From assembly GCA_029964075.1 (NCBI GenBank), contig CM057130.1, positions 2,418,001 through 2,482,000 of the forward strand: a stretch of 64,000 nt of DNA, read 5' to 3'. Both the position numbers and the translations under genes were made by a program. The notes under the pieces are model-generated. The model was not told the DNA's origin. It made no database searches and was given only the letters and a program-made list of their open reading frames with translations. This stretch comes from Patiria pectinifera. Its lineage: Eukaryota > Echinodermata > Asteroidea > Valvatida > Asterinidae. This document shows positions 5,519-35,400 of this stretch, piece by piece. Positions within the stretch are counted from its first letter, which is position 1. Each line of letters opens with the position of its first letter.

Positions 5519-5685
5519 AGTTTACAGTTTGCCCCAGCGGTTTTCAATCCTTCGAGTCGTCGTGCTACCGTCTGGTTTCCGACTCGCCGACTGATGGGTA
5601 CACAGCACGCACTGAGTGCCAACAGTTGGCAAGTGACAGCCACCTGGCGTTTATCCAGAGCCAGTCTGAAATGACATTCCTCCAG
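5519..5685 (+). CDS. Lectin A exon: first half of CTLD 1
   Basis: The acceptor TTTTTCTTCCAG precedes a phase-1 start, and the donor GTACGA follows FLQ in phase 0. It encodes the N-terminal hairpin and first helix of a long-form CTLD (VCPSGFQSFESSCYRL, then TECQQLASDSHLAFIQS). The 167-bp length equals that of the matching lectin C exon, and the intron just upstream is also recognisably similar between the two genes. Confidence 0.85.
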
Positions 5686-8600
5686 GTACGATATCGTATT
5701 TGTTTCCGTTTCATAACTGGAAACAAGGGAACACAATCGAAAGTAAGCTTAATCAGAAGGATATACCTCTTGTAAAATGCGTCCCCTGCCCGCTAAATAC
5801 CTGTAAATGACTGCGCTTGTCAAACGACCACTGCTAATAGCCTTCCATCTAGAATTCGATTACTTTTTATGTTAATTAACGGTTTTCTGAGCCAGAAAAG
5901 ACGATTCGACAGAAAAAGATATTAAGTAGTTTGGTTTCATTTCCGGATTGTAAATTCTGGTACTTGGGCTCTGTGGCGTTACTGGGATCCAATTCGCAGG
6001 TGGACACTAATTAGTGGGGCCTCGCGTTCCGGAGAGGGGCACTCAGTGCATTGTTTCTGCATTTAAAAACTCATTAGCTTGACATTTCATAAAATAATTT
6101 TGGACTTGTAATTCTTTCCTCTTTCGACTAAACAGGGTCTTGCAAATGGACAAGGGGTGGATGAGGACTATTGGTTCGGTCTGACGCACACCGACGATAC
6201 GGACCATCCTCACTGGCTGGACGGCAGCCCGCTCGGCAACTTCACGGCCTGGGATTATTTCGGGGTCTTCGACGAACACTCGCCCTGCGTCCGGCTCCGG
6301 AGACACAGCGAGTATCTCTGGAACGATAGGTACTGTAGCATCCAGATGGGCTACATCTGCGAGGTCGAGAGTAAGTCCTTTAACACGAGAATATTTCCAT
6401 GAGGCTCTCAGCTCAATTTTTCGTGTAACAGTCCACTTTTAGTCAGAATGACAGTGGTCAGCCACCTGAACCAATCCCCAAATCCACCCGTAGATCGAAC
6501 TCATTCCCGAGATCGACCACCATAGTGTTGTTAACAAGAAAACAGGAATCACGCTGGGAAGACCGGCACATTATCAAAACCGCAAAGTTAATATTTTGCT
6601 GCTATTCTTTGTTGATACAAATGTTGGGTTTTTTTAAGAGTTAACGCACTGTACCGCAAACTAGCAACATTCAGTCACCGTGTGTTTTCAGTGGAGCGTG
6701 CCCATTGCCCCGTGTCTCCCATATGCCACTCCACACGGCGGAAGCGGACGATGACTTGAAGTGCAAATAATCGAAGGTTTTCAGGACTGACAAGAAGCGC
6801 CTCCCCATCCACCCTGTAATAAAGCGATGCCGGGAGACTGTGGGACAAAGCTACGAGCTTATCCTATATTGGAATTAATTGTTTTTTTAAACAGGTGCAA
6901 ATACGCAGTACACGTTTGTGACGGAGCATTTATCTTGGAGCGAGGCGAGGGACGCCTGTGCTTCGGCGGACGGCCACCTAGCCATCATCAACTCGGAGCA
7001 AGAGAGCCTGGGTTTGCAAGCTGCCACCTCCTCACTCTCTATCCCGTCCAGCCGCTACTGGGTCGGACTGGTCACTACCATCGGTGGCACCGTGGCCTGG
7101 CTGGACGGGACGGTGCTGGCTTTTTCACCTGACAACTTTGAAGTCGATGATGACTACGAGTGTTACACCATGAACCTTGGGAGCGGAGATTGGAGAGGGT
7201 GGGATTGTACGAAGACCACGAATTATATTTGTGAAGGTATGTTAACTCGTAGTTAATTGTCGTGAATTGACTGTGTAAGCAGTGGCGGTTCTAGGGGGGG
7301 GGGGGCTGGGGGGCTTTTAAAAAAAAATTGTCTAGCCCCCCCCCAAAAAAAAACATAAAAAATGCACTAGCAAAATTTAAGAATGTGGCGTAAATGCGAA
7401 CTGTCTCCCCCTAAATAAATAGTCGTGAGAAGGGTGCATTTGCACACTTTTATGTGCCTGATTGTAGGATTTTATCAGCGCTCCCCATTCAGTATATGTT
7501 GTGGACCTCCATTAAAAAAACAGAAAAGGTAACAAAAAATCGGACATCCATCTTTTGTTTCCTTAGCGTCATCGAGTACCTTACTGACGGTAACCGTTCA
7601 GAACATGGAAACACTACAGACGTCCGTTACCATGACCGACACACCATGGGGAACGTTCGACCCCACCACCGAGCCAGAGGGCGCTATCGATCCCATCACC
7701 ACATCAGAGGGCATTGTCGACCAAACAACCAAACCAGAGGGCGTGGTCGGCGTTACCACCACACCAGAGGGCGTGGCCGACCCAATCACCACACCTGTGG
7801 ATTCGGTCGACCCCACAACTACACCAGAATACGTGACCACTGACTCCACCACCACACGGGAGGACAATATCAACCCCACCACCACAGTGGAGGGTATGGT
7901 CGACCAAACTAACACACCCAGGATCATGGTCGACCCCAAAAACACAACAGTGGGCGCAGTCAACCCAACTACCAAACCAGAAGACTTTGTCGACCCAACC
8001 ACCAAACCAGAGGGCGTGGTCGACCCAACCACCAAATCAGAGGGCGTGGTCGACATAACCACCACACCAGAGGGCGTGGCCGACCCAACCATCACACCTG
8101 TAGGCTTGGCCGACCCAACATCTACACCAGAAGACGTGGCCACTGACTCCACCACCACACGGGAGGAACATATCAACCCCACCAGTACCACCACACTTGA
8201 GGGTATGAACAACCCAACTAACACACCCGAGATCTTGGTCGACCCTACCAACACACCAGCGGGCGCAGTCGACACCACCAATTCACCAGAGGCCGTAGTC
8301 GACACCACCACCACACCAGATGACGTGATGAATTATTACCCCATAACCACACCCTTTGGTGACTTTGACCCGGACGATATCGACTCTGACGATACACCAG
8401 AAGATCAAACCGTTTTCGCCGGTACTGGCCTCTCTGAAAGTCTGACCACCAATCACTACCGAAGTCTGGCACCGCTCACTACCGAAGGGGATCATAAATT
8501 GACGGCAACGACTCCGGTTGACGAGTGCGCATCCAGTTTCCACACCTGTCGGTATAGGTCCCAGACTTATCACCTTCACGCCAATGCCAAGACGCTGCCA

Positions 8601-8795
8601 GATCACCTTTCTCTGCAGACAGTTAAGGGCATCAGGTCCGATCTCCGTTGCGCAGGCGCGTGTCTCGCACAGGATGGTTGTCGGTGCTTTGTTGTCTTCT
8701 CGAACAACGACTGTTTGCTGTCTGCGGCGGGGACGGACGAAGTCGGATTGTTGTCTCATGATTCTGCTAAAATTTATTGCATGGGGAACAACTAG
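5519..8795 (+). CDS. Lectin A: double C-type lectin domain, mucin-like stalk and PAN-like domain (5' end missing)
   Basis: The five exons I can place are 5519-5685, 6136-6370, 6895-7236 and 7567-8795; the first two together make one CTLD, so four blocks encode about 655 residues. The first CTLD is a six-cysteine long form with WLDGS and WND; the second is a four-cysteine short form with WLDG but no WND. A Thr/Pro/Asp-rich repeat stalk follows, then a cysteine-rich PAN/apple-like C-terminus ending at TAG. Donors are GTACGA, GTAAGT and GTATGT, and the phases (1, 0, 1, 1) all agree. Neither CTLD carries the EPN or QPD sugar motif, so classical mannose or galactose binding is not predicted. A secreted or surface recognition protein is inferred. 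The leader exon was not found, so membrane attachment is unknown. Lectin C is a close inverted paralogue of the first CTLD. Confidence 0.85.
6136..6370 (+). CDS. Lectin A exon: second half of CTLD 1
   Basis: The acceptor is TAAACAG (phase 0) and the donor GTAAGT (phase 1). It holds DYWFGLTHTDD, HWLDGSPLGNFTAWDYF, the calcium-site-like LWND and the closing GYICEVE. NFT is a possible N-glycosylation site. Across roughly 165 bp it differs from the 23755-23521 exon of lectin C at only three bases; the two exons then differ sharply at 6331-6351. Confidence 0.9.
6895..7236 (+). CDS. Lectin A exon: CTLD 2
   Basis: The acceptor TTTTTTTAAACAG and donor GTATGT define a symmetric phase 1-1 exon of 342 bp, a whole-domain module. 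Motifs are HLSWSEARDAC, HLAIINSEQE, RYWVGLV, WLDGTV and NYICE. The WND triplet is replaced by GDWRGWDC, and only four cysteines are present (short form), so canonical calcium-dependent sugar binding is unlikely. Confidence 0.87.
7567..8795 (+). CDS. Lectin A terminal exon: Thr/Pro-rich stalk and PAN-like domain
   Basis: The acceptor TTGTTTCCTTAG gives phase 1, and the frame runs about 408 codons to TAG at 8793-8795. The first roughly 260 codons are degenerate ten-residue units such as TTKPEGVVDP, dense in Thr and Pro and therefore a likely O-glycosylated stalk. The last roughly 95 residues hold a cysteine pattern (CASSFHTC, CAGACLAQDGC, CFVVF, NDCLL, IYC) that fits a PAN/apple-like fold. No C-terminal membrane segment follows, so this end looks soluble. 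Confidence 0.85.
7755..8330 (+). repeat. In-frame two-tier coding repeat
   Basis: Short units of about 30 bp are nested in a longer repeat with a period of exactly 303 bp (101 codons). TTTPEGVADP at 7755 recurs at 8058, and DSTTTRE at about 7841 recurs at about 8144. A small insertion (extra Thr codons near 8185) breaks the register late in the second block. Confidence 0.85.
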
Positions 8796-9857: not shown

Positions 9858-10025
9858 TTTGAATGACTAATTGATCGGCACACCGTTGTTCTCTCTATAT
9901 AAACATGTCACTAAAATGCTAATCACAATTGTGTCGTGTCGTTTGAATGACTAATTGATCGGCACACCGTTGTTCTCTCTATATAAACATGTCACTAAAA
10001 TGCTAATCACAATTGTGTCGTGTCA
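9858..10025. repeat. Tandem duplication of an 84-bp unit containing TATATAA
   Basis: Two almost perfect head-to-tail copies (9858-9941 and 9942-10025) share GAATGACTAATTGATCGGCA and CTCTCTATATAAACATG. Each includes a TATA-box-like TATATAAA. A 72-codon open frame starts at the end of the second copy but matches nothing I know. Confidence 0.9.
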
Positions 10026-13255: not shown

Positions 13256-13410
13256 GTCTCGAGACCGGTCTCGGTCTCGGTCTCGGTCTCGAGACCACTT
13301 TTTGCCGGTCTCGGTCTCGGTCTCGGGAGCTGTGGTCACGGTCTTGGTCTCGGTCTCGGTCCCCTTTGGTCTCGATATTTTGGCTGGTCTCGAGTCGAGA
13401 CCAGCCAAAA
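13256..13410. repeat. GGTCTC hexamer array
   Basis: Imperfect tandem GGTCTC/GGTCTCGAGACC units, partly self-complementary, lie just inside the left terminus of the hAT-type element. Confidence 0.9.
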
Positions 13411-14078
13411 AGTGAGGGGGGCGAATTCCACCCCCGGCCCTTTTAGGGTTAAGTAAAGAATCAGTTTAGGGCAAATGTGACTGCAGTGTGATGCTAATGG
13501 ACATGTCTCTCTTCACTTTCTAATGAGTGAGGCATAGTCCAATAACCATTGCTCCTCTTCTTATTTCTCGTTTTTATTGTGGGATGATCTGTTGAAACAA
13601 GCACTTTATAGCCATCCTCATTTATTCCAAATACAACTGAGATTTAAATCTTATGAATCAAGACTGAAACATTATTTTTACCGTCAGATTTTGTATTTTG
13701 AATATGAGGAACAAGTCAACTCTTTTTCCCTAGAAATATTGGTGATTTTTTTCTATTTTCTTTTTCAATTTTTCCTTTATTCGTGGAGGCGGGAATACTT
13801 TTTTTTCATTATATGTATTAGGCCTAATGGATATTCATCAATTCGTAGACCGTTAATTTGGTATTAGTGGTGGACAGCTGAGTGTTGTGATCTCTTTATT
13901 AAAATAGACACGATTTGGGAATAGAGTATGCAAATTACGTGAAACGTTCACAGTTACTACTCAATAACATGTTCTTTATCTCAATTATATTTTTTACAAA
14001 ATGGAGCGTGCCATTTTTTTTTATCATACGGTCACTTTCTTTTTGACTCGCCATGTATTCATCTTTTCATCTGTGATA

Positions 14079-14304
14079 ATGCACGTTAAAGAACCCAGTA
14101 ACACTTGTCGCTAAGAGGAGGGGTTTGCCCCGGTGTTTCTGGCAGTGGCAGCAATTATGCGCCGCTGCACCTAGCAAAAAGGTGCTACATAATGGGTCTC
14201 ATATGTTCATATACTTCATTTATCTGTCTTTGGTTGCATTCTCCCCCAGCGCTTTGTATCCTCTGGCAAAAAGCGCTATATAAATACAGTTATTATTATT
14301 ATTA
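14079..14304 (+). mobile_element. SINE with (ATT)n tail, nested in the hAT element
   Basis: It starts near ATGCACGTTAAAGAACCCAG and ends AAAAAGCGCTATATAAATAC followed by (TTA)n, an ending known from several invertebrate SINE families. The second hAT copy lacks exactly this segment (empty site near 33898-33910), which fixes its limits to within a few bases. Confidence 0.8.
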
Positions 14305-15389
14305 TAAACACAAATTGAGCTACTGCCATGGTCACACAAAAATAGAGTCTAATTGCCTGCCTCGTCTTCTTCCTAAATGTCAATTGCATTTGCATGAGTC
14401 GAGAAGAATTGTGTTCAATAATTAATCGCTATATGTTGTTTACGACCAACACAATAAACTATTAATATATTGGCAATATGTCATACTTGTTAATCACTAA
14501 AATATTCAAGTAAATCGCCCGGCAAAGTAGTCGATGTGGGCGATACGCTGGCACGGTACAAAACACAGAGAGGCGTGCGCACTGAGCCATGAATCCTAAA
14601 AGTACATCTCACCCACCACATTCAGTTTCAGGCAAATATGGTTCATCAATCTTCTATAGTATATGTAACGTTATTGACATTAAACAAAAATAAAGTGGCA
14701 TTACATTTCAGCCTTAGCCAGGCCTTATTCAGAGGTAAATGGCAGAGGAACAAGAAACAAACATGTAGGGGACACACAAACATGCAGGGTTGGAAGGAGA
14801 ATCACAAAGAGGGATGGGGGGGGGCAGACCAATCCATATCTGGCTACCATCTCTCAATTGTTTGGTCTACATGTACAAATCTACATTCCATGACTGAAAT
14901 TTAAAAAAATAAATCAATATTTTCTTGCTCCAAATTTTTTTCGAATCAGGTTTACAAGGAGGTCCAATGTAAAATTAAAGTTGCATTTAAATATCCGTTA
15001 GTGGTCATTGCTGAAACCAAGGGGTGGCTGTGGAGTTTAGGGTCCGAGTTCCTATAACAGATGAAACATCCACCTTTAACTTTAAAAAAAAAATTAAAAG
15101 TGGCAAAAATATATGGAGTTCATCAAATAAGGTTTTCCCCTTCTTTAAATTAGGTTGTTTCCAATTTTTTTTAATTGATTGTGACAATAACAAATTCTGT
15201 TGCCATGTTGTAATTTATGGCATGAAGCAAACACGAAGAGCACTCGCATGACACAATTAAGCAGGTACAAGTGATTCCTAACTTTCAATCACCTCCTTCA
15301 CATCCCCATGAACATCAACATCTCAAGGACAGATTGTTCAGCTGTAATTAGTGTCTTGTTGTTTATTTAGATTATTGTTATTTATTATC

Positions 15390-15761: not shown

Positions 15762-18700
15762 GTAGGTGCAACCTTCGTGAACGCATTTTGAGAATTCCAC
15801 AAAACGCAAAAGTGTGGATTTTAAAACGTTAAAGTTATCTACAGCGTCAGACAGCGCTCAGCTGCTCCCCGTCCGCTTCAAGAATTACCCAAGGAAAGCT
15901 TAAGAAAATGTCAAGATTATTTCCCGATGATGATTAACTAATATTCTCATTAAGAAATTATGTGCCGGTCAGTAACAAGGAAGTAATTAAAAGTTATGTC
16001 CATGGGCGTCGCCAGGATTTTTTCTAGATGGGGGCAAAAAAAAAATTTGCCAAAAAATTCTTGTATTTCTCAACACATTCTCGATTTATCAGTTTTAGAG
16101 GGGGGAAGGGACATTTTGCCCCCCCCCCCCACTCATTAAATGTATACCACTTTGCCTTCGCGCCTCTTTTTCTTTCCTTTTTTTTTTCTTCCTTTTTTTT
16201 GGGGGGGGGGTTTTTCCAGGGGGGGGGGGAAAGTGCCCCCCTTGCCCCCCCCCCCTCGCGACGCCCATGGTTATGTCCTGTAAGAGGAACACTCGAATGG
16301 TTACTTGTTTGATGCTTGGTGGAGTATTTGCTCGTAATAATAATTTGCTGTGCGAGCAGTATGTGAAAATGGTGTCGTTAGGTTCTGAGATCAGTGCTGA
16401 AAGGGTCATGCAATGTAAGTTTTGTTAATGCTATCGTTGAAAATGTGGCCTTTGTGTCCCATTTTAACCTTATTTTCAATTTTCGTTTTGCCATTTCAAG
16501 GGTATTTTGGTGCCTTTTGGTTGTTATGCTAATGCACATTTCTATACTCGTGGCAAGACTGTGATGTCATTCCGGGCACTTGCTAGAATTTGTGATATTT
16601 TCCTGTCATAATTTTTTTCTTTCTTTGGTGTTTCGTTGTTGCGTAAGCACATGGCAGTAACGTAAGCCAATGAGCAGCCCTTATTCAATTAGCACATTTT
16701 GGGCTCACAAATTGAACAGAAAACCCCTAAACTGAACACTCAGTGTCTTCTTGAATGACATCATTGCAACAGCGCCCCTCAGTTGTCTGGAAAAGCATGG
16801 ACAATTTTTAATGTTGAAAAATAAATGTTGAAAAGAAGTGCACTTTTCAATAAAATTAACGAGAAAGGGATGTCAAATAGTTTTCATACATTTAAGAGGA
16901 GTAGAAAGTTACACAAACTGTGTTCCTATATAAGAGAATTTCAGCGCATGGACCTTTCAATTTTTACATCAACGTCTACTATACTGTGCATCATCTACAA
17001 GTATTGAGCCAAGACCCATCCAATAGTTTTGTAAGTAACTTTTTTTGGTCCCCTCAGGGTGCCCAGACGGTTTCACCTACTTCGAGTATTCGTGTTACAA
17101 GATCCACGTTTCGCCTGAGCTGGACTGGCCCGGCGCAAGAGACGCATGCGCAGCCGGCTCCAACGGCAGCCATCTTGTCTACATTCATAGCGAGGCCGAG
17201 CAGTCTTTCCTCCGTGGCCTGGCTCTCGAAGCGTCGGCGGGGAGTGGGGTCCACCTCTGGATCGGTGTGACCGCGGTCGGGAACAGCAGTCTCCAATGGC
17301 TGGACGGTAGCCGCCTGACGTACACGGCGTGGGATGAGGATGGGCCTAGAGCAAACGGCAGGGACTGTGTGCGCCTCAGACCGGATAGGGATTACCTTTG
17401 GAACGACAGGCTCTGCTATATCACGTACGGTTACATATGTGAACAAGCAAGTGAGTTATAAATCAGTGACTTTTCATTAGAATATTCCTTAATTTCTGAC
17501 GTTGTATCAGAAAATTCCTCTGTTTTGAATTGCGAGTTTGCGTATAGACCCGGCTTAGATGTACCCCCTCAACGGTGATAATAAAATGGAGAGAGAGGAA
17601 GAGATTGACGGACACGTAAGCACCATTGCCATGCGAAAATGAGATCTTGCTTACTCTGAGCTTCCAAAGTCAACTTTCCATATTTGCCTTTTCAGTCCTT
17701 CGTTTATTGCACCTGTCGGCCTGTTACACTTATAGGCCTACCTACACAACGGACATTAAAACCATAAAACCGACTAAAATCGTTTATAGGGGGCGGTTTT
17801 CCCACGCGAACCAGCATATCGACATATCCAAAGTTCCAGCTTGGTAAATTTTGAATGGTAGACAAGTTGCATCGATCTGCACTTCTCTCGCGACTATGTG
17901 AACAAAAAATCGAAAGAACTTGTTATGCTGGCAAACAAAATGCCCGGACTGGTGTATTTTGACATCAGCAACAAATGGGAAATCTTCCATTTGCTTCATT
18001 CCGCTGCAGCCTGTGAAAAGTATTATTATAGATGCATAGCCCGTGCTCTTCAACAAATGATTTATTTTTCTCCTAACAAATTTCAATTTGCATGTTAAAT
18101 TTGTCTTAACGAAAAAACTACAGGTAATTTATTTCGATGTTGGGCTTCTGCAAACCCTCTGAAAGAGGGCGTTCACTTTGTGCACAAATGAACCCGCCCT
18201 GCGAAAGCAAAAAAAAAAATTCTGGCAGCCAATAATTCAAATTTTGTGAAGAAATAATGTAATAACTAAACGTCGGTGGATATTTTTTGGTTTATTTATT
18301 CAATTTTTTTACCCAGGGTATGCCCAAACAGTTTAAAACTGGTTTCCATTGGGGCCCTGCATACAATAAATAATGACTACAAACATGTAATGGTTCAATG
18401 TCCCATTCAAGTAACTAACGTTTATATTAAATAATGATATTTATAACCTTTGAAGAACGGAAATATTTTGTTTTAGAAAATGACTTTTATAAAATCAATT
18501 TTATCATAGAATTGTTAGTAATTTCCGCACAATAATAATGCAGTACGGGGGAAGGCTTCTGCCAATGTTACACAGGGTGCCAAAGTAACCCAGGGTGCCA
18601 AAGTGACTCCAGTTTACGGTGCATCCTTAAGTAAAATACCCATTGGAATGAATGAGATAAATGAAGTACAGATTGATTCTTTTCTTGGTTCTCTGTTTGT

Positions 18701-18978
18701 TTGTCAAAGGTTCCTCATGTCATGCAACCTCCACTGATTTCACCAGACCAACGTTGGTCGGTATGGCAGCCACCTCGGATGAGTACCTCATCAGGAGTAC
18801 CATGACGTCATCCCTGTCGCGTTGCTCCCACGTGTGTTCAAAGAACGAAGATTGCAAGAGCTTCAACTACGACGTGGCGTCGGCTCCGGGCAAGCGCACT
18901 TGCGAGTTATTTTCGGCCGTCTTTGAAGACAGCGAGATGGAGGCACGTCCAGGCTTTGCTTATTATAAACCCAATTGA
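15713..18978 (+). CDS. Lectin B: hydrophobic leader, single C-type lectin domain, PAN-like domain
   Basis: Three exons join in frame: 15713-15761 (leader), 17058-17450 (CTLD) and 18710-18978 (PAN-like, TGA stop), giving about 236 residues plus a missing first exon. The leader VVFLVVLGFHVVIC reads as the core of a signal peptide or anchor. The CTLD is encoded in one undivided exon, unlike lectins A and C. It is a six-cysteine form with WLDGS and WND but no EPN or QPD. The C-terminal domain keeps the pattern RCSHVCSKNEDCKSFNY...CEL seen in lectin C. Phases are 0-1, 1-1, then 1. A secreted recognition protein is inferred. The last exon could alternatively be a separate small gene starting at ATG 18661. 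Confidence 0.8.
16001..16269 (+). mobile_element. 269-bp foldback element, ATGGGCGTCGC family
   Basis: Perfect 12-bp termini CATGGGCGTCGC and GCGACGCCCATG are flanked by GTTATGTC on both sides (15993-16000 and 16270-16277), an 8-bp duplication. The interior is long G and C runs with T-rich DNA. It lies in intron 1 of lectin B. The frames across it are artefacts. Confidence 0.8.
16411..16935 (+). repeat. Direct repeats A and B, second copies side by side
   Basis: Copy A (16411-16830) and copy B (16838-16935) match 12609-13035 and 15475-15600. The segment lies within intron 1 of lectin B. Confidence 0.7.
17058..17450 (+). CDS. Lectin B exon: complete CTLD
   Basis: The acceptor is GGTCCCCTCAG and the donor GTGAGT; the exon is 393 bp, phase 1-1. 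It encodes CPDGFTYFEYSCYKI, ARDACAAGSNGSHLVYIHSE, VHLWIGVTAV, LQWLDGSRLTYTAWDED, CVRLRPDRDYLWND and YGYICEQA. NGS and NSS are possible glycosylation sites. The residues after WND (RLCYITY) differ from both lectin A (RYCSIQM) and lectin C (RRCDLMF). Confidence 0.92.
17451..18709 (+). other. Lectin B intron 2
   Basis: Bounded by GTGAGT and a long pyrimidine tract ending CAAAG. It contains a 73-codon frame at 17626-17847 with no recognisable similarity. The element-like phrase ATGATATTTATAACCTT near 18437 recurs near 19627. Confidence 0.6.
18710..18978 (+). CDS. Lectin B terminal exon: PAN-like domain
   Basis: The acceptor TTTGTTTGTCAAAG leads into phase 1, matching the phase-1 donor of the CTLD exon, so the junction reads CEQAS. 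It encodes 88 residues with LIRSTMTSSLSRCSHVC, DCKSFNY and CELF, closing at TGA. An ATG at 18661 in the same frame would add a leader-like MKYRLILFLVLCLFV, but that string is the translated pyrimidine tract of the splice site. Confidence 0.8.
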
Positions 18979-21561: not shown

Positions 21562-21854
21562 CTACACTCGGTAATTTTTGTAACCTCTCCTCTCCACGAG
21601 TTCCTCATCGGAAAACTCCCTGGCCAACAACTCGCAGAACCTGAGCAGCTCACCGACAGCAGCTCCCTGGGACTGGGACTGATCGAGCTGGTAGTTGAAA
21701 CCCGCGCAGGCGTTGTGTTCCAGGCAGTACTGGGCGCAGCGGATCAGGGAGCGGGTCTTGACACTGCGCAGCAGATGGTTGTCAATGGGCGCCGCCATGT
21801 TGGCTGGGCCAGACTTGAATCCAACGGCTTTTACAGTGGGCGTTGGTGGCGCTG
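21562..21854 (-). CDS. Lectin C terminal exon: PAN-like domain
   Basis: The acceptor TTACGTCCTCCAG is followed by another CAG (a NAGNAG site), so one Ala codon may be optional. It starts in phase 1 with a Pro/Thr-rich linker, then LLRSVKTRSLIRCAQYC, HNACAGFNYQL, LRFCELLA and a C-terminus ending GYKNYRV, then TAG. The cysteine pattern aligns with lectin B. Confidence 0.82.
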
Positions 21855-24800
21855 CTGGAGGACGTAACATAAAATGTGTTTTTTAGAGACAAACCACGAC
21901 CAACTCATTTCTTTAAGCAAACTTTATTTATCGGTTGGGTCAAGTTGGTCACAATTACTCTGCCTAGGGAAAATACTTGAAAAGTACCTGTCCGATTTGT
22001 GCTCGTAAATTGTGTAAAATTTACCAAAACAATCGTCTTCCCATGGTGGTCATGATGGTCTGCTCAACACACAAAGTGACGTCACGAACAATTTCTTGGT
22101 CAGGCGTTTTCTCGGTACACTGGAAACATGTTTCACGTCATGACTGTGACGTCAGAAACATGTTCCAGGTCAAAGGCCACCAACACGCGGCACAAGTTAT
22201 TAAGGCTGCATCCGAATCAGTTGTCTAGAGCTAGGTCTAGGTCTGCGCCCATTGAAAATACGCGGGGACGCGCTGACAATAGACGTAGCCGTAGCTCCGG
22301 AAGCCCGTTTCGGACACGGCCTTAGTCTGAGACCAGTTTTACTATGGGCTCCGTGCGCGAACACGAGAGGGCGCTTTTTACCACATTTTGGGGCCCCGTG
22401 GCATAGACTTTATTTACCCTTTTTGGAGGAATTCGACAAGTGGGCAGGCTATAGTCCATCATTTGCAGCCATCCAAAAAGTAACTGGCGTAATTACTAAT
22501 GAAAAACAAACTTGGTTGAAAGATAGTAAGGGAACTAAACTCCCTGTGAAATTATTCTTTCTGGGAAGCTGTCATTTTGAAGTAATCAACGAAAGAAGGC
22601 ATTTCCAACGGTGATTCTTAAGAAGCACCGTAGGAAAATTTAAATTAGTAGTTCGTTTTGTTATTCAGCGCAGCGCGCACAAGTATTGGAACGACGCACA
22701 CGCGCGCGCGGTTGTTATAATTCGTCGGATCAGTGCGCGACGCCGCGTATAGCTGCAATTCAAAACAATTCAAAACATGATTCAGTAACTTTTGATTTGA
22801 AATTGAGATCTTAGAATGCTGTTTTTCTCGGAATGTACAGCTGAAGCTTAGCTGAAACTTCATCAGGTTAGTTGCTCAGAACCCTTCATTACATTTTGAA
22901 CTCTTTTGTTGCTTCAAACGAACAAAATGCACAAAATACAAATGATGGACTGTAGCTTTAAAGCCATTCGCCCATTTCACCTACCGGCCTTTGGAGAAGG
23001 TGTCGTCAGAGGAATGACGGCATCAGAACTCCCTGTTGGCAAAATGAAAAACTTTGAGGTTTTTGAACATTAAAAATGTATGCATAATGCTCGCAAACGT
23101 GGCTTGTGTTACGAACGGAAAAGCAGGCCAAATCGCATATTTTTTTTCAGAAAGTGTTATGAAGGATTAGTTTTCAACCAACTTTCTGGAATTTGGAGTC
23201 GGATTCGAATCAGGAAGTTGACCACAGAGAGCTAGGTTGTCGAGTGGCTGATATTTTGCACAATACTGATACTTCTGGCAATGGATGCTCAGTTTCCAGA
23301 GAGGGGACACAGTATTAATGATTTGGTTATAGTTTAAAACAGTACAAAACAATTTTTCCTTCTCCAACTTTAATTTTGAGGGGGAAGGCACAAAGGGGAG
23401 GGTCGTGTACAGGCCTCGAGGGGGGCGTGCCCAGCACCCCTCCCTCCCGCCCCTAGTTACGCCACTGGTCGCTTCTATTGAAAAATCCTTTAATGGCTAC
23501 TGAAGTATATGAAAACTCACTCTCGACTTCGCAGATGTATCCAAACATCAAGTCACAACGCCTATCGTTCCAGAGATACTCGCTGTGTCTCCGGAGCCGA
23601 ACGCAGGGCGAGTGTTCGTCGAAGGCTCCGAAATAATCCCAGGCCGTGAAGTTGCCGAGCGGGCTGCCGTCCAGCCAGTGAGGATGGTCCGTATCGTCGG
23701 TGTGCGTCAGACCGAACCAATAGTCCTGATCCACTCCTCGTCCTTTTGCCAGTTCCTAAATGGTTGAAATCAAAGTCAGTCCCACATGAAATATGAACTC
23801 CCAAGAAATCTGTTTTCTTTTACTTTATGTGAAACCCCTCACACGTGACCTGCCACTGTCCTAATTATTTTCGCAACCAATATCCGTATTTCATACAGGG
23901 TGAGTAAAAATAAAAACGAAAGCCAAATGTAGGAACTATTGTTTTATTGAAGTTCTGCATGTAGCACTTTCAAAATCTAGGATATGAAAACCCAATTCAT
24001 AAGCGTTGTTTTCGTACAAGAATCATTCAAATCACTAATGTACTTTTCAAGTTACGAATTTTAAACACAACCATCATTTTAAGGTTCTGCCCACGGATCA
24101 CAAAAAAAGTGAACGTTCTTTCAGCAAAACGAAAACAATTCACACACATCCCTATGTGATTTTTTTTTCGTTTTGCTGAAAGAACACTAAACTTTTTTGT
24201 GATCCGTGGACAGAACCTAAAAACGGTGTTTGTATTTAAAGTTCCGTGTTTGTATTTAAAACTTGAAAAGTACATATGTGATTTGAATGATTCTTGTAAT
24301 AAAAGAATGCTTATGAATCGGGGTTTCATATCCTAGATTTTGAAAATGCAACATTTAGAACTTCCCTAACACAATGGTCCCAACATTTGGGTTTCGGGTT
24401 GTTTTTACTCACCCTGTAGAATCCAAAATTCACACTACACCGAAGTGAATTGGTTCTTACTCCGAAGTTATTAGGAGCTAAGAAAACAGCATCATGAGGG
24501 AGTGCAGTTTTACGCAAATTAAGGTTCCGACGTTTTTGTATTAAACTGTTGTTTTTTTGCAATCGGTATATCGTACCAATTCTTATCACGGAAGATTTTG
24601 CGGACATGATCACATTTGCATCTTTAAAAAGATAACTCTGTTTATAAGCCATTTCATTTCTAGTTATATTGTTTGGAGTGATCATCAGAAGAGATCAAAG
24701 CACCCGAAATATTAACAACTAATTCAAACATTCAACAACAAAAACTGAAACGTCAAATAGTAATTGTTGACGTCATACTTGAGCTTTAATTTTCGTTTTT

Positions 24801-25669
24801 CGTCTCGTTTCTGATATTCGATTGTATATGACAGCAATGAAAAGCAAAGCATTATTAACGGAGACTCACGAGTAGAAAATTCATTTCAGACTGGCTCTGG
24901 ATAAAGGCGAGATGACTGTCATTTGCCAACTTTTGGCACTCAGTGCGTGCTGCGTACCCATTAGTCGTTGAGTCGGCAACCAGACGGTAGCACGACGACT
25001 CGAAAGGCTGAAAACTGCCAGGGCAAACTGCAGCCCCTGCTCGAAAACATAAAAGCTTGTGATAACAATGCAACAACTTTTTTATCGCAAAGAATTAAAA
25101 AAATTAATTTGATTTACAACTTTATTTAGAAATTTCTTACAAACACACACCAATGAGGCTCATCACGTGATTCCGAGCAAATTTGACCGAAAGTAAAAAA
25201 AAAATCGAGCGCAAGAAAAAGTCGGAATGTGTTCGTTTCTTTCTGATGTGCTACGCAAACACTACTATGTTCAGGTTGATTAATTAAAAATACACAAGAT
25301 GCAAACAGATGAATTGTTATCCATGTTAACACTTCAATGTGTAGATCTTTCAGTAGGTGTTTCATTTATTTTTGTTTAGAAATGAATTGAAATGCGGCCA
25401 TGCGAGAATAGTAAAACTCTCCGCTCATCTTTAAAACCTTCTGTTGTCAAGGATTGTCTGAAGTTTTAAATTCACAAGAAATATCGGGCCAGGTTTGTTA
25501 TTCCATCAGCAAGCAAATCTTCTAGTTGTAAGAAGGAAACTTATCACCTGGAGGTATTTCTCCTACCTGTCTCTGTTGTCGTCGTAATTTCTTCCTCCGA
25601 GGAACTCCCATGTCCCAGTATGCCACTTAAATGCACGCTGATACAGGCCACAAGACAACATGCGTTAAT
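21562..25669 (-). CDS. Lectin C: hydrophobic leader, single C-type lectin domain, PAN-like domain
   Basis: Four minus-strand exons join in frame: 25669-25567 (leader), 25036-24870 and 23755-23521 (CTLD), and 21854-21562 (PAN-like, TAG stop), giving about 265 residues plus a missing first exon. Phases are 0-1, 1-0, 0-1, then 1, the same grammar as lectins A and B. The leader CCLVACISVHLSGILG is followed by an acidic and Thr-rich linker. The CTLD halves have the same lengths as in lectin A (167 and 235 bp) and match its residues at roughly 80 to 87 percent by eye. WND is present; EPN and QPD are absent. The intron between the CTLD halves carries a 521-bp foldback. A secreted recognition protein is inferred. 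Confidence 0.83.
23521..23755 (-). CDS. Lectin C exon: second half of CTLD
   Basis: The acceptor is CATTTAG (phase 0) and the donor GTGAGT (phase 1). The protein is GVDQDYWFGLTHTDD through LWND to GYICEVE, with 68 of 78 residues shared with lectin A. The differences cluster at the very start and in the block just after WND (23560-23540). Confidence 0.9.
23896..24416. mobile_element. 521-bp TA-flanked foldback MITE
   Basis: The termini CAGGGTGAGTAAAAA and TTTTTACTCACCCTG are inverted and flanked by TA on both sides, as in the Tc1/mariner group. Nearly the whole length is one imperfect inverted repeat about a centre near 24150. It lies in the CTLD-splitting intron of lectin C and is absent from the matching intron of lectin A. 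Confidence 0.85.
24870..25036 (-). CDS. Lectin C exon: first half of CTLD
   Basis: The acceptor TTTTCGAGCAG gives phase 1 and the donor is GTGAGT in phase 0. It encodes AAVCPGSFQPFESSCYRL and TECQKLANDSHLAFIQS. The intron just upstream shares AATCAAATTAA and GTTGCAT phrases with lectin A. Confidence 0.87.
25567..25669 (-). CDS. Lectin C leader exon
   Basis: CTTGTTTCAG precedes and GTAGGA follows; 103 bp, phase 0-1. It encodes INACCLVACISVHLSGILG (leader core), then HGSSSEEEITTTTET. The Met is in an unseen upstream exon. Confidence 0.65.
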
Positions 25670-25963
25670 CTGAAACAAGGAAGACGTGATGCAGAGACAA
25701 ATATAAAAATGTTTCTTTTCTTCAATCAAAAGATACCAAGTTGGATATCGTAGCCATTTATAATGACTTGGAACACTTGCAAAAAAAAAATCTTGAAACC
25801 TACAATAATAATTATTATTGAATGTTCGAAAGTTTTCGGCCTAAGAAAGTCTTCGAAACTAGCCACTCTTCTGGTTTTGTACCCGTTACCATACGATTAC
25901 ACCTCTATGTTCCGACACCCTTACGTCCCGACACCCCAATGTTCCGACTGCACATATTCCTAT

Positions 25964-32400: not shown

Positions 32401-35400
32401 AGAAGACTTTTGTTATTTTGTTTAATGGTGCATGTACACTGACAAATTGCCTGGGTTAATTTTCCCCAAGAAAGGGTGAAAACTGGAACTACCCAAACTT
32501 AGGTTGTTCTATAACCAATTGTTTGGGTTAGAATTTCTGCTAAATTCAACCAAAACTTGTGGTCATTCAAGACCAAATTTAAGTTGGTCTTGTATGACTA
32601 CAACCTTTGGTTGAATTTAGCAGAAATTCTAACCCGAACAGTTGGTTATAGAACAACCCAAGTTTGGGTAGTTCCAGTTTTCACCCTTTCTTGGGTAAAA
32701 TTAACCCAGGCAATTTTTCAGTTAAGTGAAATATATTCGTAAACACAAACTTGACAGTCGGCGGTGTCGACGTCGTTACATTTTCAAGAGCTGTTTGTCA
32801 AAGCTTTAAGGTCCATTCACGTAAGCCCTAGCTGTCACGAAGTACATAAGGTCAATGAGGATTTCTGTCAACATGAATCATATATTGAGTCTGAGTGATG
32901 ATAAACAAACCAGACCGTAGTTATTACCGATAATGCGAGTAATACTACAATGGCAAGTGAAGTGAAGCACACAACGTGTTGAGCTAATGCAGCCTCAAAG
33001 GTAATAATTGTACAACATTTTGCAAACATCAAAAAACAAAACTATTTTGTCCGAATTGACAATAAGGTCCGATTGTCCGAATCGACAATAAGGTCCGATA
33101 GTCCGAATCAACAGTAAGGTCCGATAGTCCGAAGAGTCAGACTGACGATCCGTATTGCCCATTCGGACTATCGAACCTTATTCTCAATTCGGACTATCGA
33201 ACCTTATCATCTATTCGGACTATCGAACCTTCGGATTAATTAACCTTATTCTATTTTCGGACTAATGGGCCCTTCGGACTATCAAACCTTCGGACAATCG
33301 GACTGTAACCGGTCCCCCCCCCCATCCCTTTTCGTGATTCTCCTTCCAACCCTGCATGTTTATGTGTCCCCTACATGTTTGTTCTTGTTCCTCTGTCATT
33401 TACCTCTGAAGAAGGCCTGGCTAAGGCTGAAATGTAATGCCACTTTATTTTTGTTTAATATCAATACCATTGCAAGATCAGTGAACCATGTTTGCCTGAT
33501 CTATCTTCTGTTAATCTGCCCGCCGTCATCATCGTCATTAGCCTATTTGAGAATATGGCCGACACAATAGAACGGCGCTGTCACAAACTGAATGGGCGAG
33601 ATGTACTTTTAGGATTTATGGCTCAGTGCCCACGCCTCTCTGTGTTTTGTACCGTGCCAGCGTATCGCCCGCATCGGCTACTTTGCCGGGCGATTTACTT
33701 GAATATTTTAGTGATTTACAAGCACGACATATTACCAATTTTTTAATCGTTTATTGTGATTGCCGCAAACAGCATTTAGCGATTAATGGAACAAATGTCT
33801 TCTCGACTCATGCAAACGCAATTGACATTTAGGAAGGAGACGACGCAGGCAATTAGACTCTATTTTTGTGTGACTATGTCAGTAGCTTAATTTGTGTTTA
33901 TCACAGATGAAAAGATGAATACATGGCGAGTCAAAAAGAAAGTGACTGTATAATAAAAAATAAAAAAATGGCACGCTCCATTTTGTAAAAAATATAATTG
34001 GTATAAAGAACATGTTATGGAGTAGTAACTGTGAAAATTTCACGTAATTTGTATACTCTATTCCCAAGTCGTGTCTATTTTAATAAAGAGATCACAAAAT
34101 TCAGCTGTCCACCACTAATAACAAATTTACCGTTCTACAAATTGATGAATATCCATTAATAAATATAATGAAAAAAAAAAAAAACCCGCCTCCACGAGTA
34201 AAGGAAAAATTGAAAAGGAAAGTAGAAAAAAATCACCAATATTTCTGGGGAAAAAGAGTTGAATTGTTCCCCATTATCAAAACACAAAATCTGACGGTAA
34301 TTTAAATCTCAGTTGTATTTGGAATCAATGAGGATGGCTATAAAGTGCTTGTTTCAACAGATCATCCCACAATAAAAACGAGAAATAAGAAGAGGAGCAA
34401 TGGTCATGACTCACTCACTAGAAAGTGAAGAGAGACATGCCCATTAGCATCACACTGCAGTCACATTTGCCCTAAACTGATTCTTTACTTAACCCTCAAA
34501 GGGCCGGGGCGGAATCCGCCCCCCCCCCTCACTTTTTGGCTGGTCTCGACTCGAGCCAGCCAAAATATCGAGACCAAAGGGGACCGAGACTGAGACCAAG
34601 ACCGAGACCACATCCCGAGACCGAGACCGAGACCGAGACCAGCAAAAAGTGGTCTCGAGACCGAGACGGGTCTTGAGACCTACAACACTGTCAATTAATA
34701 GAAAACACCCTGTGAATTCTTTTTGGCCTGTAGACACAGTCATTTCAAATAGGCAATGAAATCGATGCCCAGCGTCATACGATTGCTTTTTGCTGCTACT
34801 TTAGAATTAATAGTCCCAATGTTTTTACTCGTTTTTACTTGCGTCATCAACGCAATCATACATGTTTAAAATATACAAAAGAATTATTTATGAGGCTTTC
34901 TCAAAATTTGGCCAAGCTTGCAGTATCCACTGATCTGAAAAATAAACAGGATTAACTTTTAAACATCCTTCCAATATTGTACACAATCTTTTGTAAGTTT
35001 TGAAAAATTAGGAATAGTTACTAAATTTATATACCTTACCTATCAGCTCAATTTCTGCAACATGTTTTTTAGCAGATTGCAATTTAGAAAGCAGGTCCTA
35101 GTAAATGTTACCGATTTAAAATATTTTTCTTAATGGTCTGAAGTCTCAAAGTTGCACTCCTGTGCCTTTTGTTTGGGTTTAATAAAGAATAAAGAAGTAT
35201 TACTTGCCAAACTCGAATTATCAAGGTGGTTTTTTTCGGAGGGTTGCAGACGCCCAAATAGAAAAGAGATATTTTTAAGTTAATGTAAAACGTAAAATTG
35301 TAACTTCAAAGTGAGGCACCCTAGATAACTTTCACCTTCCCTCCTGCAGTTAAGACATTTTTGAATCGCATACATACGATGTTTTCATCATTAACGCGCG

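Follow-up and report, generated by a model that had tools for sequence, protein, structure and literature searches.

A divergent turn beside a near-identical tract in CTLD exons of neighbouring lectin genes of Patiria pectinifera

The window analyzed here, a stretch of 64,000 nucleotides of the Patiria pectinifera genome (C2:2418001-2482000; the genome searched comprises 613.5 Mb in 1020 contigs), holds three lectin genes, A and B on the forward strand and C on the reverse strand. Their features, numbered from the first base of the window, are as follows.

5521..5685, + strand: lectin A, exon 1 of CTLD1 (coding part used), an open frame up to a GT donor
6136..6370, + strand: lectin A, exon 2 of CTLD1 (Pfam Lectin_C, E 5.7e-8)
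6164..6330, + strand: near-identical tract shared with lectin C, a probable gene-conversion tract (3 differences)
6331..6351, + strand: divergent block of lectin A, codons YCSIQMG (12 of 21 bases differ from C)
6894..7235, + strand: lectin A, second CTLD (Pfam Lectin_C, E 3.9e-14)
7657..8327, + strand: lectin A, Thr/Pro-rich stalk, a 60-base tandem repeat (TRF: 11 copies, 64% matches)
8511..8795, + strand: lectin A, PAN-like end (PAN_1 E 0.043, 14.1 bits, below the cut-off of 21.4)
17060..17449, + strand: lectin B, CTLD in a single exon (Pfam Lectin_C, E 1.4e-16)
17411..17431, + strand: lectin B, homologous block LCYITYG, placed by alignment
18712..18978, + strand: lectin B, PAN domain (PAN_1 E 1.3e-8, 35 bits, above the cut-off of 21.4)
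24870..25034, - strand: lectin C, exon 1 of the CTLD (coding part used), from alignment with lectin A
23521..23755, - strand: lectin C, exon 2 of the CTLD (Pfam Lectin_C, E 3.6e-8)
23561..23727, - strand: lectin C, counterpart of the near-identical tract, from the A/C alignment
23540..23560, - strand: lectin C, counterpart of the block, RCDLMFG, from the A/C alignment
21565..21882, - strand: lectin C, PAN-like region (PAN_1 19.7 bits, below the cut-off of 21.4)

All four CTLDs of these genes scored above the curated PF00059 cut-off of 22.6 bits (33.9 for A exon 2, 34.5 for C exon 2, 61.6 for B and 53.7 for the second CTLD of A). Lectin B alone exceeded the curated PAN_1 cut-off; the PAN regions could be aligned between B and C (E 8.7e-16) and between A and C (E 1.6e-4). 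The CTLD of lectin B occupies one exon, and those of A and C are interrupted by an intron at the same place. When the whole genome was searched at the DNA level with exon 2 of lectin A, the matches were A and C only. Lectin C has a likely signal-peptide exon near 25568-25679 (- strand), read by eye, and its first intron holds a 532-base foldback element (23890-24421, ~80% self-complementary). The stalk of lectin A lies in an open frame at 7533-8795, and the opposite strand of its repeat is also open for 244 codons (7598-8332, - strand). Antisense frames are likewise open across exon 2 in lectin A (6043-6438, - strand) and lectin C (23513-23767, + strand), with no evidence of a gene in either. 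Elsewhere in the window are an exact 84-base tandem duplication (9858-10024, 100% matches), a 285-base palindrome (32438-32722, 92.6% self-complementary) and two inverted copies of a dispersed element (13280-14824 and 34667-33315) that match in three pieces of 88-95% identity.

Exon 2 of lectin A (6136-6370, + strand) aligned with that of lectin C (23755-23521, - strand) over 235 bases without a gap and with 23 differences, of which 7 fell in 6136-6165, 3 in 6166-6330, 12 in the block at 6331-6351 and 1 in 6352-6370. The block encodes YCSIQMG in A and RCDLMFG in C, so that five of seven residues are changed and the Cys and Gly are kept; NG86 counting assigned it 10 replacement and 2 silent changes, the A/C block alone offering only 3.8 silent sites, and nearly every one of its codons carries multi-base differences. 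In a scan of exons 1 and 2 (399 sites, 49 differences), 12 differences fell in the densest window of 21 bases (permutation p ~1e-4, 20,000 shuffles), and the clustering persisted once the near-identical tract was removed (234 sites, 46 differences; p = 0.005). Compared directly, the block differs at 12 of 21 bases and the exon sequence outside the tract at 34 of 213 (p=7e-5). A sequence-only reading of the window had reported about 3 differences in the 165 bases ahead of the block, 11 of 21 within it, five of seven residues replaced, LCYITYG in lectin B and a return to near-identity beyond. The alignment reproduced each of these (past the block, 1 of 19 bases differs) apart from the count within the block, where the sharp divergence was confirmed at 12 rather than 11. 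What that reading had left out of account is that near-identity is itself the exception between A and C: 26 of 165 bases differ in exon 1 and 7 of 30 at the start of exon 2.

The near-identical tract is itself unusual within these exons. Between A and C, dS was 0.364 and dN 0.129 in exon 1, and dS was 0.422 in the first 30 bases of exon 2, whereas the 165 bases at 6166-6330 gave a dS of 0.058 and a dN of 0.008; pooling the other exon parts yielded a silent divergence of 0.369 to set against the 0.058 of the tract. Third positions differed at 2 of 55 sites in the tract versus 21 of 78 outside it (p 3.4e-4), and the longest identical run spanned 100 bases (permutation p 1e-4). Beyond the exons the two genes share little: intron 1 could not be aligned credibly (best E 0.20), the 600 bases past exon 2 gave a best match of E 0.02, and the 600 bases ahead of exon 1 gave one weak match (47 bases, 74%, E 5e-5) adjoining low-complexity sequence. 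Silent divergence in the tract thus lies well below that of its flanks, the pattern sought as a sign of gene conversion, and a short conversion tract is probably the simplest and best-fitting account of the near-identity at 6164-6330. From the ratio of silent divergences, the tract would be roughly a sixth as old as the other exon parts. We consider it very improbable that the tract was instead kept by purifying selection on the protein, on splicing or on an antisense gene, with the block as its sole unconstrained part. Most of the CTLD core does lie within the tract, and the antisense frames across exon 2 are open in both genes. However, when lectin B is compared with A or C, most silent sites of this same segment have changed, to near saturation (A-B dS 1.8, C-B dS 2.3; pS 0.69 and 0.71), and A and C themselves show pS of ~0.3 in exon 1 and at the start of exon 2. 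Silent constraint therefore does not account for the near-identity of A and C and was rejected.

The analysis was made from the assembled sequence, and a sequencing or assembly artefact could in principle produce a block of this kind. Such an origin is extremely unlikely, since the reading frame and the block Cys are intact in both A and C, which argues against sequencing error, and since their introns and exon 1 differ throughout, which marks them as distinct loci. A similar pattern also recurs on C22 and C9 (described below), and assembly error was rejected for now on these grounds.

The behavior of the block across the gene family was determined from CTLD exons collected from the same genome with lectin B as the single query, a procedure that scored 150 of 420 candidates and missed most intron-split CTLDs. 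Thirty of the 150 were obtained as loci and 111 of the other 120 were retrieved; the 9 remaining comprised 6 already in the set, 2 with in-frame stops and 1 short match. Setting aside 32 partial hits among 181 domain hits, 130 distinct full domains together with A and C gave an alignment of 132 rows, which superseded an earlier one of 97. Five rows cut at the block were removed to build a 127-row protein tree, made by a fast method that gave no support values, and A and C were removed before pairing. In the 97-CTLD alignment the block columns ranked 1, 4, 11, 12, 19 and 20 of 125 in variability, and the Cys was invariant. Because variability alone could reflect tolerance, replacement was set against silent change within pairs of closely related paralogues joined by non-overlapping paths on the tree, with A and C left out. 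The rates are pairwise NG86 counts from one assembly, which take no account of transition bias and count a multi-base change as one step.

Across 36 tree-disjoint pairs, the block showed a pN of 0.190 and a pS of 0.164, versus 0.072 and 0.124 elsewhere in the domain. Among 121 windows it ranked second for replacement in each of four identity classes, behind the window shifted one residue upstream, and it was individually significant (p<0.01) in 10 of the 36 pairs, the most of any window; the shifted window followed with 9 pairs and three others with 7, the median being 1. The sequence-only reading would have been undermined by an equal rate of change across the whole exon in other paralogues, and these 36 pairs display no such uniformity. 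The excess is present with and without the full set of sugar motifs: in pairs keeping both motifs, 39 of 105 block residues were replaced versus 305 of 1777 elsewhere, and in the other pairs 39 of 147 versus 290 of 2434. A first, greedily chosen set of 33 pairs that were not tree-disjoint gave a stronger result that we do not rely on (97 of 226 versus 798 of 4129 residues, p 4e-15; pN/pS by identity class 1.15, 1.62 and 2.12), the tree-disjoint sets being preferred. Silent change in the block is only slightly raised (0.164 versus 0.124) and replacements are 2.6-fold higher, so a mutational hot spot is not supported as the main cause. As block pS does exceed that of the rest, part of the excess may reflect age, alignment error or exclusion from conversion. 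This pair test also revealed another, weaker hot segment in the loop just before WND (residues 107-115 of lectin A).

Measured against its own silent sites, the block gave a pN/pS of 1.16 (CI 0.79-1.86) in all 36 pairs, 1.49 (CI 0.89-2.86) in the 32 pairs of at least 80% identity, 2.03 (CI 1.17-5.33) in the 26 pairs of at least 87% identity and 1.26 (CI 0.90-1.86) in 19 far pairs, while the rest of the domain ranged from 0.53 to 0.61 over the four classes. Measured against silent change over the domain as a whole, it gave 1.47 (CI 1.13-1.88) in 35 pairs, where the rest of the domain gave 0.57, then 1.45 (CI 1.01-2.00) in 32 pairs and 1.44 (CI 0.80-2.28) in the 25 closest pairs. Over 100 other disjoint sets this second ratio varied from 1.24 to 1.81, and 100 other sets per class had medians of 1.59, 1.70 and 1.86. 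Sign tests placed the block above the rest in 23 of 36 pairs (p=0.13), 19 of 32 and 13 of 26, none of these three classes being significant, and in 19 of 19 far pairs; the excess is hence carried by part of the pairs. The proposal of diversifying selection made from the original reading accordingly draws support from the family-wide excess over domain silent change, but neither from the ratio to the block's own silent sites nor from the sign test when all pairs are taken, and among the closest pairs the outcome depends on the denominator.

These values bear on the main rival, namely that no surface loop of the CTLD is under weaker constraint than this turn, which would simply record old divergence beside the edge of a conversion-homogenized tract. 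We regard this as rather unlikely, although it has points in its favor: its columns belong to the most variable ones of the whole family, the block's ratio to its own silent rate over all pairs is compatible with 1, and a tract edge falling exactly at the block exaggerates the contrast. Under simple tolerance the ratio should nevertheless not exceed 1, in contrast to the 1.47 obtained with domain silent sites, the better measured of the two denominators, and to the 2.03 obtained in pairs of at least 87% identity. The A/C block, moreover, exceeds even the background outside the tract. Diversifying selection on the block is thus favored rather than proven, as several of the intervals include 1. 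Taken together, the data incline us, with some reservation, to a mosaic in which a tract made by conversion adjoins a β4-β5 turn under diversifying selection on a recognition surface. Lectins A and C would be old duplicates with a mosaic exon, in which a fairly recent conversion of ~167 bases (6164-6330) from one gene to the other ended at the block. Between the CTLD paralogues sampled from this genome, the β4-β5 turn, together with its one-residue shift, is the segment most often replaced, at ~1.5 times the silent rate, and the rest of the CTLD is under purifying selection; such a pattern would be expected if the turn helps to determine what each lectin recognizes. Conversion would then refresh the frame and leave the turn distinct, with diversifying selection acting on the recognition surface. 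Of this account, the tract, the block, the excess across the family and the place in the fold were observed; the origin of the tract by conversion, the role of selection over tolerance and the contact of the turn with a ligand are inferred. A loop spared in this way while its exon is homogenized would illustrate how family members can have a common frame and yet stay distinct.

The position of the block in the fold was determined from an AlphaFold2 model of the lectin B CTLD, computed from a 55-sequence alignment of CTLDs of the same genome (mean pLDDT 93.8, pTM 0.89). The model has the double-loop CTLD fold and matched 532 solved chains at E <= 0.001, the best of which are CTLDs. In it, β4 comprises residues 113-117 and β5 residues 123-129, and the block corresponds to residues 118-124. 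By homology to this model of B, the A/C block is predicted to form the β4-β5 turn together with the start of β5. The turn adjoins the ligand-facing upper lobe of the modeled domain, a location that suggests it could contact a ligand. All three lectins carry the WND motif in β4, and in none of the three does the long loop contain EPN or QPD; among the 132 aligned CTLDs, 55 have an [EQ]P[ND] motif and 21 of the 65 that bear WND are without EPN/QPD. With this half of calcium site 2 missing, the ligand of A, B and C need not be a sugar, and canonical calcium-dependent sugar binding by them is doubtful. The placement of the block after a WND calcium-site motif near the ligand face, which had been part of the original argument, is therefore upheld as to the motif and the fold, and weakened by the missing EPN/QPD. 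In the vertebrate lectin langerin, K313 is two residues past the Cys that follows WND, which we take to be within the homologous turn. A review covering DC-SIGN, langerin, mincle and E-selectin describes residues around the canonical site, termed the extended site, that give specificity, among them S360 and V351 of DC-SIGN and K299 and K313 of langerin (PMC7618208). By analogy with that account, the turn appears to sit beside the region of extended ligand contacts in vertebrate CTLDs. These vertebrate glycan-binding domains share the fold and WND with A, B and C, and differ from them in having the EPN or QPD motif (PMC7618208).

Two further sets of paralogues elsewhere in the genome show a block at odds with its surroundings. 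On C22, L089 and L098 differ at 7 of 21 block bases versus 4 of 378 in the remainder of the domain; at six of those seven block positions, L098 is matched by L160 and L161, two CTLDs 89% identical to L089. Because these six are common to L098, L160 and L161, L089 is probably the changed copy, or else L098 acquired its block from a relative like L160 or L161. On C9, L176 agrees with L119 at 9 of 10 informative block sites and with L117 at 23 of 25 outside it (p 7e-6), a pattern consistent with a swap of the block as well as with replacements confined to L117; four-sequence tests with L177 were weak (p 0.08 and 0.02). Both cases raise the prospect that a block is exchanged in a single step, through micro gene conversion from a different CTLD, and not by successive substitutions, with selection optional afterwards. 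We judge such templated import to be unlikely. The C9 and C22 patterns and the multi-base differences in nearly every A/C block codon are what it would produce, but the same two patterns also fit changes private to L117 and L089, the L177 tests add little, and the 132 aligned CTLDs, a set drawn largely from unsplit CTLDs, contain no donor for the block of A or C, the nearest having 9 of 21 mismatches. Patchy gene conversion, as first suggested from the letters of the window, thus describes the tract at 6164-6330 and not the block itself. It is possible, and we put it forward tentatively, that the genome holds a large germline CTLD family on several chromosomes in which conversion homogenizes the frame and the turn after WND and Cys is rewritten repeatedly, either by selection or by short-tract swaps. 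If so, the family would form a repertoire for recognition whose diversity is concentrated at a single defined point of the CTLD fold. A, B and C themselves amount to three genes rather than a large repertoire; the large family consists of the other CTLDs of the genome.

Many invertebrates have large CTLD families, and an immune role is generally assigned to these from expression or homology and nothing more. With one hot loop specified beforehand, that question becomes open to direct test. Among well-characterized systems, the closest in kind is that of the lemur CD94/NKG2 (KLR) receptors, for which codon models provide evidence of diversifying selection at ligand-contacting CTLD sites (PMC2757895). 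That system resembles the present one in its duplicated CTLD genes and in change concentrated in the lectin-like domain, and differs in that its members are vertebrate NK receptors that bind MHC and were studied with likelihood models and population data (PMC2757895), whereas we used pairwise counts from one genome and focused on a seven-residue turn. Since selection at the ligand face of CTLDs is known from the lemur genes, the kind of phenomenon is already known; what is new here is its place, its host family and its occurrence as an island within a homogenized exon. We found no report of this loop as an invertebrate hot spot in the open-licence literature searched, which is weak evidence of absence.

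A parallel in fold only is offered by the variable proteins of diversity-generating retroelements (DGRs; Mtd, TvpA and AvpA), which have the C-type lectin fold and place their variation in strands and turns immediately ahead of an invariant β5, the variable residues of AvpA starting at the end of β4' (PMC5006420). The turn is close to these variable residues in the same fold, and the DGR proteins differ in being prokaryotic and in owing their diversity to mutagenic reverse transcription of a template repeat (PMC5006420). Members of the mannose receptor family (5xtw, 5ao6 and others) were the best PDB sequence matches of the lectin A exon (E 4e-6 to 7e-5); they are multi-CTLD endocytic receptors without a PAN domain. 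The best fold matches of the lectin B model included CEL-I of the sea cucumber Cucumaria echinata (1wmy; E 8.7e-11, TM 0.89 by query), which differs in being, by its structure title, a single C-type lectin. Within the genome itself, three CTLD exons on C21 (L030, L031 and L032), spread over ~130 kb, have identical DNA in the matched domain.
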